Below, piece by piece: positions 26,740 through 36,245 of a DNA stretch of 64,000 bases. Below the pieces are notes generated by a model. The model made no database searches. It was given only the letters and a program-made list of their open reading frames with translations, and was not told the DNA's origin. The position numbers and the translations under genes were made by a program. Every line of letters starts with the position of its first letter. The stretch's first letter is position 1. Origin of the DNA: Cellulomonas sp. HZM (GTDB lineage: Bacteria > Actinomycetota > Actinomycetes > Actinomycetales > Cellulomonadaceae); the NCBI RefSeq assembly GCF_000708885.1, contig NZ_JEOE01000001.1, positions 310,001 to 374,000 on the forward strand, read 5' to 3'.

Positions 26740-27587
26740 GGGCGTGCCACCGCACCGACGCGCGTCGCCCAGAACGCGACCGCGGCGGCCGCGGCGACGT
26801 TGAGCGAGTCGACCCCGCCGGCCATCGGGATCCGCACCACGCGGTCGCACGCCGCGATCGTCTGCGCCTTGAGCCCGTGCCCCTCGGCGCCGAGCACGAG
26901 CGCGAGGCGTTCGGGCGGGTCGGCGACGAGCTCGTCGAGCGTGATCGAGTCGTCCGACAGGGCGAGCGCCGCCGTGACGAACCCGGCCGCGCGCAGGTCG
27001 TCGATCCCCGACGGCCACGCCTCGATGCGCGTCCACGGCACCTGGAACACCGTGCCCATGGACACCCGGACCGAGCGCCGATAGAGCGGGTCGGCGCACC
27101 GGGGCGTGACGAGCACGGCGTCGACGCCGAGCGCCGCCGCGCTGCGGAACGCCGCGCCGACGTTGGTGTGGTCGACGACGTCCTCGAGCACCGCGACACG
27201 GCGGGCGCCCGCGAGGACGTCCGCGATGGGCGCCAGCAGCGGGCGGTGCATCGACGCGAGTGCTCCGCGGTGCACGTGGAAGCCGGTGATCGCCTCGAGC
27301 ACCGGCTCCTCGGCGACGTACACGGGAGCGTCCCAGTCGGCGTCGAGACCCTCGACCATGCGCTCGAGGTCCGGGACCCAGCGCGGCGCGAGCAGCACCG
27401 AGCGTGGCCGGTGACCGGCCGCGAGCGCACGGCCGAGGACCGTCGAGCTCTCCGCGATGTACAGGCCCTTGGCCGGCTCGTGCTTCGAGCGGAGCGCGAC
27501 GTCCGTCAGGGAGACGTAGTCGGCGAGCCGTTCGTCGGACGGGTCGGTGACGGGCTGCAGGTCCAGGCGGGGCACGCGGACGATCAT
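26736..27587 (-). CDS. SpoU/TrmH-family RNA 2'-O-methyltransferase
   Basis: 283 residues. An N-terminal substrate-binding region (about 10-110, LRSKHEPAKGLYIAESSTVLGRAL) precedes the SPOUT knot domain with motif 1 (DVVDHTNVGAAFRSAAALGVDAVL), motif 2 (LVLGAEGHGL) and motif 3 (IPMAGGVDSLNVAAAAAV). These motifs hold the catalytic Arg/Asn residues and the AdoMet-binding knot. The likely substrate is rRNA or tRNA ribose. The gene overlaps its neighbours by four bases on both sides (ATGA), so it is tightly coupled to the MFS gene before it and the hypothetical gene after it. Confidence 0.92.
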   Translation of the reverse strand: MIVRVPRLDLQPVTDPSDERLADYVSLTDVALRSKHEPAKGLYIAESSTVLGRALAAGHRPRSVLLAPRWVPDLERMVEGLDADWDAPVYVAEEPVLEAITGFHVHRGALASMHRPLLAPIADVLAGARRVAVLEDVVDHTNVGAAFRSAAALGVDAVLVTPRCADPLYRRSVRVSMGTVFQVPWTRIEAWPSGIDDLRAAGFVTAALALSDDSITLDELVADPPERLALVLGAEGHGLKAQTIAACDRVVRIPMAGGVDSLNVAAAAAVAFWATRVGAVARP

Positions 27588-28876
27588 CCCAGGACGCGCG
27601 CCCGCAGCAGGCGGCCGCCCAGCAGCGCGGCGACCGCACCGGCGACGGCCATCGCGGGCACCACGGCGAACGCCGTGTGCATGCCGACGGAGTCCGCGAG
27701 CGCCCCGAGGGCGAACGGCGCGACGCCCACGGCGATCCCGCCCGCGAGGGTCGCACGCGCCTGCGCGACGTCGTCGGCCCCGGGGACGGACACGAGCAGC
27801 AGCGTGATCGACAGCGGGTACTGCACGCCGTAGCCGAGCCCCGCGACGACGAGGCCGACGATCGCGACCCACGCGCTCGTCGCGGTCCAGAGCACGGCCC
27901 AGCCGACGATGGCGACCGCGAACCCGGCGACGAGGATCGCGGCGGGCGGCACGCGCAGCGTCATGGGCCCGACGAGGAACCGGATGAACGACATGCCGGC
28001 GACGAGGCCCGCCGTGGTGGCCGTCGCGATGCCCGCGCCCGCCCCGGTCTGGGCCTTGACCAGGTCGGCGGACCAGTACGTGGTGGTCATCTCGAGCGCG
28101 ATCGCGGCGACCACCGCGACGAGGAAGCAGATCGCGGCCCCGCTGCGCAGCGCCCCCCGCGCGCCCGGGGGGTCCTGGTGCCGGACGGCTGGGTCGACGA
28201 CAGCGACCGCGAGCGCCTCGACCGACCCGACGACGGGCTGCGGTCGCCCCGGCGCGAGCACGTCGGACCCGGCGGGTGGCGTCATCGCCCCGCCGTCCGG
28301 GTTGCGCGAGACGAGCCACGCGGCCGCCGCGGTGATGACGACGACGATCGCGACGGCCGGGCGCCATCCCCAGCCGACCGCGACGAACGCCCCCACCGCG
28401 AGCGGCCCGACGAGCCCGATGCTGGACCCGACGCCGTTCGCCTCGGTGACCGCGGCGGACGCGGCCGCTCCGTGGTGGATCGCGAGGCCCGGCTGCGCGG
28501 CGCTGATCGCCACGTTGCCGCCCACGGCCAGCACGAACAGCCCGGCCAGGCTCCACGCCAGGAAGGGAGCGGTGACCAGTCCGGTCGTGCCGACGACCAC
28601 GAGCGCGAACGCCGTGTAGAGCGCGCGTCGGCGGCCGGCGCGGCGCACCAGGGCGGGGCAGAACAGCGCGGTGACGATGCCGCCGAGCGCCATCGCCGTG
28701 CCGTGCAGGCCGGCCTGCGCGAGCGAGATGCCGAAGTCGTCGGCCAGCAGCGGCACGCTCGGGTTGAACGAGTACAGGACCCAGCCCCAGATAACGAAGC
28801 TGCCGTAGAAGGCATAGGTCAGGCGGTCGCGGCGGAACGTCACCGTACCGCCGGTTACCACCCGGTCGGGATCCAT
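27584..28876 (-). CDS. MFS transporter
   Basis: 430 residues with about 12 membrane helices: six in the first 200 residues, a hydrophilic loop (about 190-245), then six more. The ALVRRAGRRRALYTAF loop between helices 2 and 3 is the usual MFS motif A position, though degenerate. The substrate is unknown. A TAGGCT box six bases before the ATG suggests a leaderless start, and its TAG is also the stop codon of the upstream membrane-protein gene. It overlaps the SpoU-family gene by four bases. Confidence 0.82.
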   Translation of the reverse strand: MDPDRVVTGGTVTFRRDRLTYAFYGSFVIWGWVLYSFNPSVPLLADDFGISLAQAGLHGTAMALGGIVTALFCPALVRRAGRRRALYTAFALVVVGTTGLVTAPFLAWSLAGLFVLAVGGNVAISAAQPGLAIHHGAAASAAVTEANGVGSSIGLVGPLAVGAFVAVGWGWRPAVAIVVVITAAAAWLVSRNPDGGAMTPPAGSDVLAPGRPQPVVGSVEALAVAVVDPAVRHQDPPGARGALRSGAAICFLVAVVAAIALEMTTTYWSADLVKAQTGAGAGIATATTAGLVAGMSFIRFLVGPMTLRVPPAAILVAGFAVAIVGWAVLWTATSAWVAIVGLVVAGLGYGVQYPLSITLLLVSVPGADDVAQARATLAGGIAVGVAPFALGALADSVGMHTAFAVVPAMAVAGAVAALLGGRLLRARVLG

Positions 28877-28882
28877 GACCGC

Positions 28883-28888
28883 AGCCTA
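28883..28888 (-). promoter_or_regulatory. -10 box of leaderless promoter for the MFS gene
   Basis: TAGGCT on the minus strand is six bases before the ATG at 28876. Its TAG doubles as the stop codon of the gene at 28886-31789. Confidence 0.5.
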
Positions 28889-31789
28889 GGGACTCCCCCG
28901 CAGCGCCGTCACCAACGCGCCGAGCTGGAAGCGGTACTCCGCCGCCGCGGGGTACCCGCTGTGGGCCGCGACCTTGAGCAGGTAGGCCGTCCCGTCGACC
29001 TCCTGCGCAGGGTGGTCCAGCTCGGTCGCCGCGACGTCGTAGGAGTCGACGGGGAAGCCGATGAAGTCCGTGCGCCGCCACAGGCTGCGCCAGCGAACCG
29101 TCGGGCCACGACGCGAACGCGGGTCCGCGGGTGTCGTCAGCGAGTCGACGAGCGTCGTCCCCGTGGGAGCAGCGGCCGCGGGCGGGTCCGACCGCCACGG
29201 GTCGCTCGCCCACAGCCGCGCGGCCCTCGTCGGGCTCGTCCCCAGCACCGCCGGCCCGAACAGCTCGGGGAAGAACCTGCCGAAGTACGCGCGCAGCTGC
29301 GTCCCGTACGTCAGCAGCGCGACCCGCTCGTCGTGCGACCCGCGCGGCCCGTCCCACCGCGCGAGCAACGTCGCGACCGACACGACCCCGCCGAGGCTGT
29401 GCGCGCTGAGCACCACCCTGCGGTGCGCGAGGTCGCGGAGCTGCGGCGCGGTGAGCGACGCTGCCGGGCGGTCGTCGCCCAACCAGGCGTCGATCCGCGC
29501 CCGCAGCTCCGGCACGACGCGCTCGGCGTAGCACGGGGGCGCGAACGGGTGCGCGGCGCGCGGCAGGAAGCACATCAGGTCCCAGAGCAGGCCCCACGGG
29601 CGCGCGAGCGACGCGTTCGAGCCCGCCAGCACCACGCTCGCGACGACGAGCCCGCTCGCGATGACCACCGCGGTCGTCGACCACCGGACCCCGGCCGACC
29701 ACGGTCCCGCGAAGGGACCGCCCACGTCCGCGTCGGGTGCCGGCAGCACGAGCGTCGCCGCGAGCGCGACGAAGAACGTCCCGCCGACGATGCCGACCAC
29801 CCGCTCCGCGCGCTGCGCGAGAGCCGCGTGCCGCCTGCCGCGCTGCACGGCCGCCTCGACCCCGGTCCGGGGCGCGGACGGGTGCGGACCTGCGGGCGAG
29901 ACCGGCAGCGGCGTGCCGCGTAGCGCACCCATGCGTGCGAGGAGCCCGACGACGAGCAGGACGACGACGGCCACGACCGCGACACTCATCACCGCGAACT
30001 CGGTGTACCCCGGCGGCGTCACCAGGTGCGCGGGCGCGGCGACGGCCACCGTGACCGGGTCACGCAGCCGGTCGGCGTCGCCCACGGCCTGCAGGGCCGC
30101 CGTGACGTCGTCGGGCACCGTCGCGTTCTCGGGAGCCCCGGGCGCCTCGAGCCACGCGACGACGCCGAGCACGGCTGTCGCGCTGAGCACCATCGCCGTC
30201 CCGGCCGCCATCGAGAGCAGCACGAACGGCCCGCGCCCGCCCCACCCCTCCCGGTCGCGCGCGGCGTGCCGGGCGTTCGCGACGACGACCACGACGACGA
30301 GCACGAGCACGGCCGCAGCCGCGACGGCCCGGCTCGCGACCGCACCGCCTCCGTCGGGCCACATCAGCGCGAGCAGGCCGCCGACGATCGCGAGCACCAC
30401 GAGCGGCGCCCACACCGCCGCGCGCACCCGCGCCCGGGCACCGACCGCGACGACGCACAGCAGCACCATCACCGCGATGAGCAGGCTCGGCACCGCCGCC
30501 AGGCCGAGGAACGGCACGGCCGTCGGGTCCGCCGGCCGCAGCGGCGCGTCGCCCGAGGTCGCGACGTCGACCACGCACCAGACGAACAGCGCGAGCCCGA
30601 CGAGGAAGAGCGACGCGTCCACAGCGCGGGAGACGGTGGCATCGCTCGTGCGCACCTGCTGGCCGGACGTGCCGTGCGGCAACGGGTCGAGCCGCACCCT
30701 CGACACGCGGACGGCCACGGCGACGAGCAGCAGCGACCCGACGAGGACGATCACGGCCCAGGGCGCATGTCCCGGAGCCGACCACACGTCCGACCCGAGG
30801 CAGCCCCTCGCGCCGAAGCCGGTCGCACGCCAGCACCCGGGCTGGTCGCGGTACACGAAGTGCCACGCGAGCAGGACCGCGAGCAGCGCGAACGCGGCCG
30901 CGAGGTGCTGGTACCAGAGCACCGAGGAGCGCCGGGCGTGGGTCCAGAAGCCCGGGCGGGCGAGCATGGGCCACGGACGGTCGTCGGCCGCGGCGCCCGC
31001 ACCGTCCGCGGTCAGACCGAGCGCCTTCGTCGTCGACATCGCGCGCTCGTACCGCACGCGACCCGTCGAGCCCACGGCCGCGAGCGCGAGGACGGCGAAC
31101 GCAGCGAGCACCGCGAGGACGGCCGTCCGGGAGCCGCTCGACCACCGCGCCCACGCGTCGAGCTGGGACGGCAGCGCCGTGCAGGTCATGACGTACTGCA
31201 CGGACCCGGAGCCGGCGTCGAGCGTCTCACGTGGCCCGTAGCACTGCGCGCCGACGATCCCGAGCGTGATGGTCGCCGCCGATGCCGTCCACAGCAGCGT
31301 GAGCGTCAGCCCGAACAGCCGCACGAGACCCCCGGCGGCCGACGACCGGCGCCCCGGGCTCTCGTCGGCGTCACGCGCCCAGTACGCCACGTTGGCGAGG
31401 CCGAACGGGATGATCAGCACCCACAGCGCGCGGACGACGCCCGCGACGAGCCCGGACGCCCGCCCCAGCCCCGGAACGGTCGACAGCCTCGCCATCGCGC
31501 CCCACGAGTACGCCTCGCGGCGCACGCCCGGCGGCGGCGTGCGCGGGTCGCCCGGCGGTCGCTCCACCTCGGCCGCGTGCGCCGTCGCGGTCCAGAAGCT
31601 GCCGAGCCCGTCGCCGTCGACCTGCTCGACCTGCGTGGGGTCGAGGCCGAGCATCGCGGCCGGCGGAGTGTTCGCGACGCCGTGCACGCGCAGCTCGAGC
31701 ACGTCGACCTCGTCGACCCCCCGGCCGTGGCCGTGGTTCGCACGACCTCGCAGCAGCCTCATCGCTCCCCCAGCGCCGGTCCGGACCAT
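28886..31789 (-). CDS. Large membrane protein with split alpha/beta-hydrolase-like motifs
   Basis: 967 residues. The N-terminal part contains LELRVHGVANTPP (about 31-42), resembling the strand and HG oxyanion loop that open a lipase-like fold. About a dozen membrane helices follow (first near 115, last near 725). The soluble C-terminus (about 735-967) has a nucleophile-elbow-like VLSAHSLGGVVS (serine near 798) and a late AAHSGYP (His near 943). Together these look like one alpha/beta-hydrolase interrupted by a membrane domain. ATG 31789 is used; ATG 31762 is also possible. Neighbours (MFS, SpoU, ABC exporter) do not indicate a substrate. I know no characterised relative. Confidence 0.7.
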   Translation of the reverse strand: MVRTGAGGAMRLLRGRANHGHGRGVDEVDVLELRVHGVANTPPAAMLGLDPTQVEQVDGDGLGSFWTATAHAAEVERPPGDPRTPPPGVRREAYSWGAMARLSTVPGLGRASGLVAGVVRALWVLIIPFGLANVAYWARDADESPGRRSSAAGGLVRLFGLTLTLLWTASAATITLGIVGAQCYGPRETLDAGSGSVQYVMTCTALPSQLDAWARWSSGSRTAVLAVLAAFAVLALAAVGSTGRVRYERAMSTTKALGLTADGAGAAADDRPWPMLARPGFWTHARRSSVLWYQHLAAAFALLAVLLAWHFVYRDQPGCWRATGFGARGCLGSDVWSAPGHAPWAVIVLVGSLLLVAVAVRVSRVRLDPLPHGTSGQQVRTSDATVSRAVDASLFLVGLALFVWCVVDVATSGDAPLRPADPTAVPFLGLAAVPSLLIAVMVLLCVVAVGARARVRAAVWAPLVVLAIVGGLLALMWPDGGGAVASRAVAAAAVLVLVVVVVVANARHAARDREGWGGRGPFVLLSMAAGTAMVLSATAVLGVVAWLEAPGAPENATVPDDVTAALQAVGDADRLRDPVTVAVAAPAHLVTPPGYTEFAVMSVAVVAVVVLLVVGLLARMGALRGTPLPVSPAGPHPSAPRTGVEAAVQRGRRHAALAQRAERVVGIVGGTFFVALAATLVLPAPDADVGGPFAGPWSAGVRWSTTAVVIASGLVVASVVLAGSNASLARPWGLLWDLMCFLPRAAHPFAPPCYAERVVPELRARIDAWLGDDRPAASLTAPQLRDLAHRRVVLSAHSLGGVVSVATLLARWDGPRGSHDERVALLTYGTQLRAYFGRFFPELFGPAVLGTSPTRAARLWASDPWRSDPPAAAAPTGTTLVDSLTTPADPRSRRGPTVRWRSLWRRTDFIGFPVDSYDVAATELDHPAQEVDGTAYLLKVAAHSGYPAAAEYRFQLGALVTALRGSP

Positions 31790-31867: not shown

Positions 31868-33838
31868 CTACTCCTGCGCGACCGGCGCGGCGAACTGGCT
31901 CTCGTACAGCCGGGCGTACGCCCCGCCCGCCTCGAGCAGCCGCTCGTGCGAGCCCTGCTCGACGATCGAGCCGTGCTCCATCACGAGGATCGTGTCGGCG
32001 TCCCGGATGGTCGACAGGCGGTGCGCGATGACGAACGACGTGCGCCCGTGGCGCAACGCGTTCATGGCCTGCTGCACCAGCACCTCGGTGCGGGTATCGA
32101 CCGACGACGTCGCCTCGTCGAGGATGAGGATCGTCGGGTCGGCGAGGAACGCGCGCGCGATCGTCAGCAGCTGCTTCTCGCCCGCGGAGACGTTCGCGCC
32201 CTCGTCGTCGATCACCGTGTCGTACCCGTCCGGCAGCGTGCGCACGAAGCGGTCCACGTGCGTGGCCTCGGCCGCCGCGACGATCTGCTCGTGCGTCGCG
32301 TCGTCCACGCCGTACGCGATGTTCTCCGCGATCGTGCCGCCGAAGAGCCAGGTGTCCTGCAGGACCATGCCCATCTCGGAGCGCAGCGCGTCGCGGGTCA
32401 GGTCGCGCACGTCGGTGCCGTCGAGCGTGATCCGCCCGCCGTCCACCTCGTAGAACCGCATGAGCAGGTTGACGAGCGTCGTCTTGCCCGCACCGGTCGG
32501 GCCGATGATCGCGATCGTCTGCCCCGGCTCCGCGACGAGCGACAGGTCCTCGATGAGCGGCTTGTCGGGCGAGTAGCTGAACGCGACGTGCTCGAACGCG
32601 ACGCGGCCCGCGACGTGCTCGTCGAGCGCCGCCGGACGCTCCGGGTCGGGGGTCTGCTCGGGCGCGTCGAGCAGCTCGAACACCCGCTCGGCCGACGCGA
32701 TGCCCGACTGCAGCAGGTTCGCCATGCTCGCGATCTGCGTGATCGGCTGCGTGAACTGGCGGCTGTACTGGATGAACGCCTGCACGTCGCCGAGCGTCAT
32801 CGTGCCGGACGCGACGCGCAGGCCACCGACGACCGCGACGATCACGTAGTTGAGGTTCGCGAGGAACCCGAGCGCAGGCTGGATCGTGCCCGAGATGAAC
32901 TGGGCCTTGAAGCTCGCGTCGTAGAGCTTCTCGTTGCGCTCCGCGAACGTCTGCGCGGCCTCCTGCTGCCGGCCGAAGACCGTGACGAGCGTGTGCCCGG
33001 TGAACATCTCCTCGATGTGCGCGTTGAGCTCGCCGGTCCCCGCCCACTGCCGCACGAACTGCGGTCGCGAGCGCTTGGCGATCATCGCCGCGACGAGCAT
33101 CGACAGCGGGACCGTGACGAGCGCGACGACCGCGAGCAGCGGCGAGATCCAGAACATCATCACGAGCACGCCGATCACCGTCAGGACGGCGGTGATGAGC
33201 TGGCTGAGGGTCTGCTGCAGCGTCTGCGCGACGTTGTCGATGTCGTTGGTGACGCGGCTCAGGAGCTCGCCGCGCGGCTGGCTGTCGACGTAGCTCAGCG
33301 GCAGCCGCCCGATCTTCGCCTCGACGTCGCCGCGCAGCCGACGGACCACGCGCTGCACGACGCCCGCGGTGATGCGACCCTGCGCCCAGCCGAACAGGAA
33401 CGACCCGACGTACACGAGCACGACGACCGCGAGCACGCCGCGCAGCGCGCCGAAGTCGATGCCCTGCCCGGGCACCAGCCCCGTCATCCCGGCGACCGTG
33501 CTCGCGAACGTGTCCTGGCCGGCCGCTCGCAGCGCCTCGACCACCTGGTCCTGGGTCATCCCGCTGAACTGCGGCCCGAGCCGCTTGCCGACGTACCCGT
33601 CGAAGATGAGGTTCGTCGCGCGCCCGAGGAGCTTGGGCCCGACGACCGCGAGGAAGACCGACGCGACCGACAGCACGAGGACGAGCACGATCTTGAACCG
33701 CTCGGGCCGCAGCTCGCGCAGGAACCGCACGCCCGAGGCCTTGAAGTTCGTCGACTTCTCCCCGGGCATGCCCATCGACATCATCGGGTTGCCGCCGCGC
33801 GGGGGCCGCCGCGTGGGAGCGTTCTGCTGCGCGCTCAT
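31868..33838 (-). CDS. ABC exporter subunit, canonical ATPase site (half of heterodimer)
   Basis: 656 residues: a Met/Pro-rich N-terminal extension (1-45), six membrane helices (about 48-345), then a nucleotide-binding domain with Walker A GPTGAGKTT (about 446), signature VSAGE in place of LSGGQ (about 546), and Walker B LILDEATSSVD with the catalytic Glu intact (about 568), then the H-loop IAHRLST. It overlaps the partner gene by four bases (ATGA). Pairs with one good and one degenerate site are typical of heterodimeric multidrug or lipid exporters such as TmrAB or BmrCD. It lies in the TetR-led operon. Confidence 0.92.
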   Translation of the reverse strand: MSAQQNAPTRRPPRGGNPMMSMGMPGEKSTNFKASGVRFLRELRPERFKIVLVLVLSVASVFLAVVGPKLLGRATNLIFDGYVGKRLGPQFSGMTQDQVVEALRAAGQDTFASTVAGMTGLVPGQGIDFGALRGVLAVVVLVYVGSFLFGWAQGRITAGVVQRVVRRLRGDVEAKIGRLPLSYVDSQPRGELLSRVTNDIDNVAQTLQQTLSQLITAVLTVIGVLVMMFWISPLLAVVALVTVPLSMLVAAMIAKRSRPQFVRQWAGTGELNAHIEEMFTGHTLVTVFGRQQEAAQTFAERNEKLYDASFKAQFISGTIQPALGFLANLNYVIVAVVGGLRVASGTMTLGDVQAFIQYSRQFTQPITQIASMANLLQSGIASAERVFELLDAPEQTPDPERPAALDEHVAGRVAFEHVAFSYSPDKPLIEDLSLVAEPGQTIAIIGPTGAGKTTLVNLLMRFYEVDGGRITLDGTDVRDLTRDALRSEMGMVLQDTWLFGGTIAENIAYGVDDATHEQIVAAAEATHVDRFVRTLPDGYDTVIDDEGANVSAGEKQLLTIARAFLADPTILILDEATSSVDTRTEVLVQQAMNALRHGRTSFVIAHRLSTIRDADTILVMEHGSIVEQGSHERLLEAGGAYARLYESQFAAPVAQE

Positions 33839-35571
33839 GCCGCCTCCTCCGCGCTGACCTGCGAGTACACGATCTCCTGGTACGTCTGCGACGACTCGAG
33901 CAGCTCGGCGTGCGTCCCCACCGCGACGACCGCCCCCTCGTCGAGCACGACGATCGTGTCCGCGTGCCGGATCGTCGCGACGCGCTGCGCGACGACGAGC
34001 ACCGCTGCGTCCCGTGTCTCGGGGAGAAGCGCGGCACGCAGGCGCGCGTCGGTCGCGTAGTCGAGCGCCGAGAACGAGTCGTCGAACAGGTAGAGCCGTG
34101 GTCGTCGCACGAGCGCACGCGCGATCGCGAGGCGTTGGCGCTGACCGCCCGAGACGTTGGTGCCACCCTGCGAGATCGGCGCGTCGAGGCCCTCCGGCAG
34201 CTCCTCGACGAAGTCACGCGCCTGCGCGACCTCGAGCGCGTGCCACAGCTCCTCGTCGCTCGCACCCGGCCGGCCGTACTCGAGGTTGGTGCGAATCGTC
34301 CCGGTGAACAGGTACGGCTTCTGCGGCACCAGGCCGACCTGCTCCCACAGCACGTCGGGGTCCAGGTCACGGACGTCGGTGCCGTCGATCAGCACCGCGC
34401 CGCCCGTGACGTCGAACAGCCGCGGCACCAGGTTGAGCAGCGTCGTCTTGCCGGAACCCGTGGAGCCGATGATCGCCGTCGTGCGGCCCGGCTCCGCGAC
34501 GAGGTTCACGCCGTGCAGCACGGCCGCCTCCGCACCGGGGTAGCGGAACTCGACGTCGCGCAGCTCGAGCCGGCCCGGGTGCGCGCCGCTCGGCGCGACG
34601 GGCGCGACGGGCGGGAGCACCGACGTGCTCGTGTCGAGCACCTCGCCGATGCGGTCCGACGACACCATCGCGCGCGGCAGCATCACGAACATCATCGTCG
34701 ACATCATCACGGCCATGAGGATGTAGGCGATGTACGACAGGAACGCCGTGAGCGCGCCCACCTGCATCCCGTCGTCGACGCGGTGCGCGCCGAACCACAT
34801 GACGCCCACGCTGGTCACGTTGAGGATCAGCATCACCACGGGGAACATCAGCGCCATGAGCTGACCCGTGCGCAACGACGTCAGGAACAGGTCCTGGTTC
34901 GCCGCGCCGAACCGTTGCGACTCGCGCTCCTCGCGCACGAACGCCCGCACCACGCGGATACCTGCGATCTGCTCGCGCAGCACGCGGTTGATCGCGTCGA
35001 TGCGCTTCTGCATCTGCCGGAAGTACGGCACCATCCGCGAGATGATCAGCCCGACGACGATGCCGAGCACCGGCACCGCGACGACGAGGATCGACGACAG
35101 CTTCACGTCCTCCTGCAGCGCCATCACCACGCCGCCGACCAGCATGATCGGCGCCATGATCATGATGGTGAACGACATGAGCACCACCATCTGCACCTGT
35201 TGCACGTCGTTCGTCGTGCGCGTGATGAGCGTCGGCGCGCCGAACCTGCCGACCTCCTGCGCCGAGAACGACTGCACGTGGCCGAACAGCCGCCCGCGCA
35301 CGTCGCGACCGAACGCCATCGCGGTGCGCGCGCCGTAGTAGACCGCGAACACCGAGCACACGACCTGCGCGAGGCTGATCGCGAGCATGATGCCGCCGAG
35401 CCGCCAGATCTCGTCGGTGTCGCCCGCGGCGACCCCGTCGTCGATGATCCGGGCGTTGAGGCTCGGCAGGTAGAGCGTGGCCATCGTCTGCACGAGCTGC
35501 AGCACCACGACGGCCCAGACGGCACGCGTGTAGGGACGCAGGTGCTCCTTGAGCAGGCGGACGAGCATCAT
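33835..35571 (-). CDS. ABC exporter subunit, degenerate ATPase site (half of heterodimer)
   Basis: 578 residues: six membrane helices (about 15-300) and a nucleotide-binding domain with Walker A GSTGSGKTT (about 369), signature VSGGQRQ (about 470) and Walker B LYLFDDS (about 490), where Asp replaces the catalytic Glu; the switch region reads VAQRVAT, with Gln in place of the usual His. Loss of the Glu and His in one half is the mark of heterodimeric exporters with one non-hydrolysing site. AGGAG precedes the first of two adjacent ATGs, which overlaps the TetR-gene stop. Confidence 0.93.
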   Translation of the reverse strand: MMLVRLLKEHLRPYTRAVWAVVVLQLVQTMATLYLPSLNARIIDDGVAAGDTDEIWRLGGIMLAISLAQVVCSVFAVYYGARTAMAFGRDVRGRLFGHVQSFSAQEVGRFGAPTLITRTTNDVQQVQMVVLMSFTIMIMAPIMLVGGVVMALQEDVKLSSILVVAVPVLGIVVGLIISRMVPYFRQMQKRIDAINRVLREQIAGIRVVRAFVREERESQRFGAANQDLFLTSLRTGQLMALMFPVVMLILNVTSVGVMWFGAHRVDDGMQVGALTAFLSYIAYILMAVMMSTMMFVMLPRAMVSSDRIGEVLDTSTSVLPPVAPVAPSGAHPGRLELRDVEFRYPGAEAAVLHGVNLVAEPGRTTAIIGSTGSGKTTLLNLVPRLFDVTGGAVLIDGTDVRDLDPDVLWEQVGLVPQKPYLFTGTIRTNLEYGRPGASDEELWHALEVAQARDFVEELPEGLDAPISQGGTNVSGGQRQRLAIARALVRRPRLYLFDDSFSALDYATDARLRAALLPETRDAAVLVVAQRVATIRHADTIVVLDEGAVVAVGTHAELLESSQTYQEIVYSQVSAEEAA

Positions 35572-36245
35572 GACTGTCTCCTGAGGGGTGACGGGGCGAG
35601 CGCGCCGTGCAGGAAGTGGGTGACCAGGACGTCGATCTCGGGGACCTCGGCGGTGGTCCCGCGTCGGGCGGCATCGGCCTGCTGCATCGCGGCGCCGACG
35701 AGCACGACGTCGAGCAGCTGGACGACCTGGTGCAGCGGTCGGGCGAACTGCGCGGCGTCGGGCTCGAGCACGCGGGTGACCGCGAACCGCACCGCGGCCT
35801 GGCCCTCCTCCTGGCGCCGCACCCACTGCGCGTGGACCTCACGGCGGGCCTGCACGCTGTGCTCGAACCCCGGGTCCCCGCGGCCGAGCTCGTGCAGGAC
35901 CGCGACCCACCGCATGGTCTCGCCGACCCGTTCGAAGCCGATCTCGAGGACGCGCGCGAGCCGCTCGTCGAGCGGCAGCCCGCGATCGATGGCGTCGAGC
36001 AGCGGCACCGCCTCGGTCGGGTCGAGCGCGGCGTGCACCGTCTCGCGTACCAGCGCCGCCTTGTCGTCGAACACCCGGAACAGCGTGCCCTCGGAGACGC
36101 CGGCCGCCTGGGCCAGCTCACGCGTCGTCACGGCCGCACCGCGGGCCAGCACCAGACCACGCACCGCGTGCAGGATCGCCGTGCGGCGCTCCTGGGGCGG
36201 GAGCGGTGCCGCCCTGCCGGCGGGCGCCGGGCTGCTCGTCGTCAC
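35568..36245 (-). CDS. TetR-family regulator of the ABC exporter operon
   Basis: 225 residues from a GTG at 36245. The helix-turn-helix is at about 20-65 (RRTAILHAVRGLVLARGAAVTTRELAQAAGVSEGTLFRVF, a classic TetR_N pattern). The C-terminal ligand domain has no close match known to me. The gene overlaps the first ABC gene by four bases, and a near-perfect palindrome lies 16 bp upstream of its start. The expected logic is autorepression of the tetR-ABC-ABC operon, lifted by the exported compound. Confidence 0.9.
   Translation of the reverse strand: MTTSSPAPAGRAAPLPPQERRTAILHAVRGLVLARGAAVTTRELAQAAGVSEGTLFRVFDDKAALVRETVHAALDPTEAVPLLDAIDRGLPLDERLARVLEIGFERVGETMRWVAVLHELGRGDPGFEHSVQARREVHAQWVRRQEEGQAAVRFAVTRVLEPDAAQFARPLHQVVQLLDVVLVGAAMQQADAARRGTTAEVPEIDVLVTHFLHGALAPSPLRRQS

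Follow-up and report, generated by a model that had tools for sequence, protein, structure and literature searches.

The stretch of DNA examined here (the window) comprises 64,000 nucleotides of the 3.56-Mb genome of Cellulomonas sp. HZM, bases 310001 to 374000 of contig 1, and it carries on its minus strand a gene for a 967-amino-acid protein with a membrane domain in its middle, around which the N- and C-terminal parts are predicted to form a single alpha/beta-hydrolase fold. Membership in the alpha/beta-hydrolase superfamily is well supported by the motifs and the structural model, and we consider it probable that the protein is a cytosol-facing, membrane-integral serine acyl-hydrolase whose lid has been turned into a 12-helix membrane domain, its activity and substrate both being predicted. 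The parts of the gene, with the evidence for each in parentheses, are as follows.

28886 to 31789, minus strand: the whole gene, encoding a predicted split alpha/beta-hydrolase with an inserted membrane domain, 967 amino acids (open reading frame [ORF] and homologs)
31454 to 31720, minus strand: N-terminal hydrolase part, residues 24-112, with strand 30-36 (oxyanion-type E32-x-R34-x-H36-G37) and strands 54-60, 63-68 and 89-95 (beta4, EAYSWG) (AlphaFold2, VIA-align, conservation)
31376 to 31453, minus strand: helix 113-138, conserved and hydrophobic, read as non-spanning (conservation, AlphaFold2, topology and subgroup helices, from which the non-spanning state is deduced)
29624 to 31339, minus strand: predicted 12-helix membrane domain, residues 151-722, between beta4 and the helix preceding the nucleophile strand (AlphaFold2, topology, subgroup helices)
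31181 to 31243, minus strand: Cys183 to Cys203, covering the last part of membrane helix 1 and the outer loop that follows it, a probable disulphide (paired Cys occurrence)
28889 to 29602, minus strand: C-terminal hydrolase part, residues 730-967, with helix WD..FLPR..HP..P, strand 791-797, the S798 elbow, strands 823-828 and 900-904, D908 and H943 (conservation, AlphaFold2, VIA-align)
29396 to 29398, minus strand: Ser798, predicted nucleophile (conservation)
29066 to 29068, minus strand: Asp908, predicted catalytic acid (conservation)
28961 to 28963, minus strand: His943, predicted catalytic base (conservation)

An initial annotation, made from the letters of the window, had picked out an HG oxyanion-like loop near residue 36, a nucleophile elbow AHSLGG near residue 798 and a candidate catalytic His near residue 943, and all three are upheld by comparison with homologs. 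In the translation they lie in LELRVHGV (H36 and G37), in LSAHSLGG (S798) and at the candidate H943; further conserved features are D908 in LWRRTDFIG, the E32-x-R34-x-HG strand and EAYSWG (residues 92-97), at the end of the strand that precedes the membrane part. Across 84 aligned rows (the window protein and 83 others) E32, R34, H36, G37, E92, W96 and G97 are identical in all 84 and S798 is present in 83 (one gap). For both D908 and H943 the count is 79, with gaps in five ORFs that end earlier; H36, G37, S798, D908 and H943 thus occur in every row that reaches them. His36-Gly37, Ser798, Asp908 and His943 are invariant in 79 end-to-end rows (counts made without L001, which is the window's own copy, and without the five ORFs that are cut short), none of which lacks Ser, Asp or His. 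Alignments A1 and A3 hold 73 and 70 of the end-to-end rows, respectively, and a 73-row tool alignment, with identities of 24-74% to the window protein, has the same invariant residues. Before counting, 21 ORFs were dropped: five duplicates, 12 without an N-terminal match, three short ones and one (L050) by an over-strict pattern; read by eye, L050 carries RIHGM and AHSIGG. The elbow itself varies, with GYSQG in a four-row clade and Ala for Gly800 in L079, a truncated ORF.

The same residues are found in 29 partial rows from across the phylum (one of them the window's own, and two overlapping genes counted before). Once aligned, all 29 have the Ser and all 29 the His, so the Ser and His of the initial annotation hold among these homologs as well; the acid is an Asp except in one row (L127), which has Glu, so that 28 carry Asp. 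Before alignment, fixed patterns had detected the elbow in 26 of these rows, the motif around the Asp in 23 and the HG strand in four. HG is seen in all six of the phylum-wide rows that clearly reach its strand, most loci beginning inside the gene, and both the HG strand and the E-x-Y-x-W-G strand are present in rows from other classes that extend far enough (L122, L123, L124, L125 and L126 are examples).

Some individual members depart from these patterns. The elbow His is replaced by Gln in L136 and the catalytic Asp by Glu in L127, both distant members, and in L051 and L087 the N-terminal end of the hydrolase ORF is out of frame, possibly through assembly error or decay.

This conservation bears on the idea that the protein has retained its triad yet works in vivo as a non-enzymatic sensor or scaffold. 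Such a role would suit a family for which there is no known activity and which occurs patchily (in the genus, 17 genomes out of 60), but we regard it as very improbable, as triad and HG are invariant at 24-74% identity and Ser, His and the acid are kept phylum-wide, which would be unusual for dead enzymes.

That the two ends form one fold is supported by structure prediction. AlphaFold2, run with the 73-row alignment, gave a model with a predicted local distance difference test score (pLDDT) of 87.9 (85.1-87.9 over five models) and a predicted template modelling score (pTM) of 0.91, in which the N-terminal part has strands 30-36, 54-60, 63-68 and 89-95 and the C-terminal part strands 791-797, 823-828, 900-904 and 925-927. 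When this model was compared with 992 chains by VIA-align, 206 scored Z >= 8, and the best 50 of these 206 (Z 9.2-11.2) all begin at model residue 23-29 and finish at 960-967; the ranges give the first and last aligned residues, and from them we infer the residue-wise match of the N-terminal strands. By title these 50 entries are alpha/beta-hydrolase folds, except RavL and MAJ1, which are not placeable by title. They include Bacillus subtilis LipA (1i6w), titled a minimal alpha/beta hydrolase, in which 166 of 179 residues align (Z 10.1, root-mean-square deviation [rmsd] 3.4; LipA 3-176 on model residues 29 to 963), and the phospholipase PlaB (Z 10.2, rmsd 3.7, 188 aligned). The results support, at the level of a model, a single alpha/beta-hydrolase fold made by both ends with the triad in the order Ser-Asp-His, as in the superfamily. 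The initial annotation had supposed such a joining, with residues 1-60 as the N-terminal contribution; this segment does join the C-terminal sheet in the model, but its extent is instead about residues 24-112.

Two other explanations of the N-terminal motif, that HG is a chance match and that the ends are two separate proteins, were rejected on the grounds of its invariance and the joined model.

The uppermost VIA-align row among the matches listed is the Mycobacterium tuberculosis thioesterase TesA (Z 11.2, rmsd 2.9, 164 aligned), and with it an acyltransferase comes into consideration, in which the same Ser-Asp-His machinery would pass an acyl group from a membrane lipid or thioester to an acceptor and not to water. 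The alpha/beta-hydrolase fold does support transacylation, as in the antigen 85 mycolyltransferases, and the family has members in Lentzea, Nocardia and mycobacteria besides Cellulomonas. TesA is tied, however, with rows down to about Z 10.2, structural rank inside the superfamily is not predictive of reaction type, and no acyl-carrier or polyketide protein was found among the ten representative neighbor proteins that were scanned. We therefore think an acyltransferase unlikely.

The remaining 640 or so residues are largely membrane domain. The initial annotation had counted about twelve membrane helices between its first two motifs, and the AlphaFold2 model has 12. Hydropathy of the window protein gives 13 hydrophobic stretches between residues 114 and 705, of which we infer that 12 are membrane helices and that 113-138 is not a spanning one. 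The predicted fold encloses the domain, which is bounded by residues 112 and 735; it starts past strand 89-95 and stops before the helix preceding strand 791-797; its insertion point in the model is after beta4. The 12 model helices separate 13 successive loops, whose mean content of lysine plus arginine (residues 139-735, 79 rows) is 4.3, 2.2, 7.6, 1.5, 3.4, 0.9, 2.5, 0.4, 3.7, 1.6, 8.8, 0.6 and 1.9, alternating at every step, and by the positive-inside rule these charges make both residues 139-150 and the C-terminal part cytoplasmic. Given the joined model and the even helix count, helix 113-138 must not span; twelve crossings with a cytoplasmic N-terminal part are thus supported but conditional. 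Helix 113-138 is conserved (W123, P128, N133 and their neighbors), its hydropathy peaks at 2.18 in the window protein and at 1.1-1.6 in six rows from Micrococcaceae, and it is possible that it is an interfacial or re-entrant lid helix.

Cysteines and helix losses are also informative about topology. Of 79 rows, 70 have both Cys183 and Cys203, which are predicted to lie outside, nine have neither and none has just one, a pattern that makes a disulphide between them probable; at another outer pair of positions, 319/330, 30 rows have both Cys and four have one. In the alignment, helices are lost in pairs by six Micrococcaceae rows (without F and G) and by the four GYSQG rows (without G and most of H).

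Predicted alone, the membrane domain (636 residues) forms a model with pLDDT 84.9 and pTM 0.90, and P128, N133, R157, W282 and H295, in the domain and the helix that leads into it, are invariant in 73 rows, which suggests a role beyond anchoring. Such residues exceed the needs of a passive anchor, and twelve is a common number of helices for a transporter; both would suit a lipid transporter, a flippase or a channel, in which the helices would do the main work and a hydrolase on the cytosolic side, part of the same protein, would couple or gate it by trapping or charging the cargo. Whole-model Foldseek matches to POT transporters (E 0.06, probability 0.15) and to MprF (E 0.52), both insignificant, point the same way, as does the one NCBIfam match of the window protein, to MprF over the membrane helices, which at E 0.039 and 12.2 bits is far under the cut-off of 600. 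But the membrane domain alone has no significant match among solved structures (best Foldseek E 0.32; best VIA-align Z 7.6, over 56 residues) and the hydrolase residues are conserved at least equally, and a transporter of this kind seems to us improbable.

Several findings weigh against a membrane-integral hydrolase of this design. The window protein has no match in Pfam (E <= 1), PHROGs or PADLOC, no hydrolase model among them, and Foldseek with the whole-chain model had no match at E <= 0.001, perhaps because 640 residues interrupt the fold. In a profile-profile test of the joined ends against 15 Abhydrolase_6 proteins (usable from 15 of 30 loci) only 17 columns, at the nucleophile elbow, aligned. 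The N-terminal part added no support: the probability was 79.1 for the joined ends, 83.8 when the C-terminal part was used by itself and 79.0 in a control with the ends in the wrong order. In global mode the correct order scored 2.3, below both the C-terminal part by itself (23.8) and the wrong order (24.0). As the profile comparison lends no support, the evidence for the join is that of AlphaFold2 and the structure comparison. Regarding topology, the last inner loop (1.9) is less charged than the first outer one (2.2), single charge steps being unequal in strength, and longer loops tend toward more charge. Charge does not place residues 1-112, and a spanning helix 113-138 would put the two ends on opposite sides, with residues 1-112 outside and unable to reach the C-terminal sheet. 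One inner loop contains Cys in 24 of the 79 rows, five Lentzea and Nocardia rows shorten helix H alone (an odd loss), and plain hydropathy gives helix counts from 9 to 13 among members. No constant gene partner was seen among the loci compared, and enzymatic activity and a lipid substrate are predictions.

We continue to favor the cytosol-facing serine acyl-hydrolase with an inserted membrane domain, and we suggest that it would be built and would act as follows. The chain would begin in the cytoplasm, where the strand of the HG oxyanion loop and beta4 would be laid down first, then cross the membrane twelve times and return to the cytoplasm, where the C-terminal part with Ser798, Asp908 and His943 would complete the sheet. 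Because the insertion occupies a known lid position, the membrane domain is expected beside the active site, where it could serve as a fixed lid or portal through which a lipid or lipid-linked acyl ester or thioester would enter sideways from the inner leaflet. Ser798 would then cleave the acyl bond by the usual acyl-enzyme mechanism, as expected of a member of the superfamily. Catalytic activity, the role as lid or portal and a lipid substrate are all deduced in this scheme, and the substrate class and lateral loading are proposed because of where the membrane domain sits, with PGAP1 as the analog (PMC10761859). The initial annotation had thought the enzyme suited to lipids or lipid-linked polymers; extracellular polymers are less likely, as the catalytic C-terminal part is predicted to be cytoplasmic, and the use of lipids is retained as a deduction. 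More tentatively, the protein may represent a new architectural class, in which the lid is replaced by a 12-helix domain of undescribed fold, sheet and membrane domain can only fold together, lipids are loaded laterally from the inner leaflet, possibly after flipping, and the whole has spread across Actinomycetota unrecognized by the family libraries searched.

These libraries do recognize some of its relatives faintly. The initial annotation had proposed a profile search of the C-terminal part alone; that of the window protein itself matched none of Abhydrolase_6, Lipase_3 and PGAP1, and when the C-terminal parts of 49 members were scanned singly there were weak matches to Abhydrolase_6 in 17 (best E 2.2e-5), to Lipase_3 in 13 and to PGAP1 in 12 (PF07819, best E 0.008). 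The family is recognizably alpha/beta-hydrolase, yet it is outside the library models searched. In the PDB the sequence of the window protein had a single match, to a receptor (E 0.06), and the family profile had 13 matches up to E 10. Most of these were helical or membrane proteins, SbmA being the best (E 0.009), and profile positions 701-764 matched lipases and EDS1 (E 0.29-0.74). No relative was found in phage records at E <= 0.01, and the one match in a plasmid collection lies in a chromosome-sized 11.85-Mb Nonomuraea record without listed features.

Relatives are patchy in Actinomycetota. Protein searches found them in 21 of the 198 genomes searched for the order and in 17 of the 60 for the genus, and a profile of the C-terminal part matched 28 of 396 genomes of the phylum (E <= 1e-6), the window's own genome being included in each count. 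A contig scan of GTDB species gave 81 relatives, the best 80 of which were kept, in 78 loci, in genera that include Cellulomonas, Occultella, Promicromonospora, Leifsonia, Myceligenerans, Cellulosimicrobium, Lentzea, Arthrobacter, Citricoccus, Nocardia and Mycolicibacterium; the nearest named relatives of the gene are in Cellulomonas. Some genomes have several copies (three in G604, two each in G633 and G638), among them a divergent group matched only near residues 705-885.

The hydrolase ORF runs from an ATG at 31789 to a stop at 28886-28888. The ATG of Met10, at 31762, is preceded by a purine-rich gggggagcg, and since residues 1-23 have pLDDT <50 in the AlphaFold2 model, Met10 may be the true start. 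Upstream lies an ABC (ATP-binding cassette) exporter-type pair (31868-33838 and 33835-35826, minus strand), one identified by Pfam and the other by clustering with it, and downstream a major facilitator superfamily (MFS) transporter gene (27584-28876, minus strand) starts 9 bases past the hydrolase stop. Because the MFS gene adjoins the hydrolase gene in the window and a clustered gene lies downstream of the hydrolase gene in seven Cellulomonas loci, the two may be co-transcribed. Clustered ABC exporter-type genes are also upstream in several Cellulomonas, Myceligenerans, Isoptericola and Cellulosimicrobium loci, and a SpoU-type methylase near the window gene is named by its resemblance to a scanned one. 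The Leifsonia, Lentzea and Promicromonospora loci differ, with TMEM175, LanC-type, Cu/Zn superoxide dismutase, peptidase S41 and sigma factor genes among the ten neighbor representatives scanned, and no partner of the hydrolase gene could be picked out. Neighbor genes were called by a crude codon-position method.

An enzyme fold that accommodates an entire polytopic domain would illustrate a route by which soluble enzymes can become integral to the membrane, and it would raise a question of folding, as the sheet could not close before the membrane helices were inserted. The family also points to a predicted acyl-ester or lipid activity in many actinobacteria that lies outside all the family models searched.

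Comparison with known systems is informative in placing the protein. The initial annotation knew of no characterized protein of this layout, and we likewise found none in open-access full text among the matches listed, which falls short of showing absence from print; the split architecture looks undescribed, and it suggests an enzyme with a membrane-derived substrate. LipA, Abhydrolase_6 (PF12697) and Lipase_3 (PF01764) resemble the window protein in fold (VIA-align Z about 10) and in the order HG, Ser elbow, Asp, His, whereas relative to the superfamily at large it has an insertion of about 640 residues after beta4, with 12 membrane helices in the model, and no profile match to these families. 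The known transmembrane lipases of the Abhydrolase_9 / Abhydrolase_9_N group (PF10081 / PF15420) likewise combine a hydrolase with a membrane part. In the parts of a superfamily survey drawn on here, however, their membrane domain is a fused add-on outside the fold, as is that of DUF687 (PMC11878206), whereas ours is predicted to lie inside it; PF10081 was unmatched by the window protein (E <= 1) and by the C-terminal parts of the 49 members (E <= 0.1), and membership in Abhydrolase_9 was rejected on this ground. The same genome also encodes an Abhydrolase_9 protein (L169, G000:C11:9010-9843), possibly another membrane lipase.

According to the same parts of the survey, the site after beta4 is one of five lid positions, and FSH1, DDHD2, Abhydrolase_8 and DUF6792 have lids at this very point (PMC11878206). 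Lids are defined there as small, mobile elements, and lids and caps are soluble in these parts of the survey, which include none that spans the membrane.

The GPI (glycosylphosphatidylinositol) inositol-deacylase PGAP1 (PF07819) is a polytopic membrane serine hydrolase with a Ser-His-Asp triad, as the window protein is predicted to be. In the part of the study of PGAP1 drawn on here, a jelly-roll domain lies beside its lipase and membrane domains (PMC10761859); the window protein differs in having 12 helices and no run of strands for jelly-rolls in its model, and in being predicted cytoplasmic. PGAP1 is described there as keeping acyl chains in a cavity (PMC10761859).

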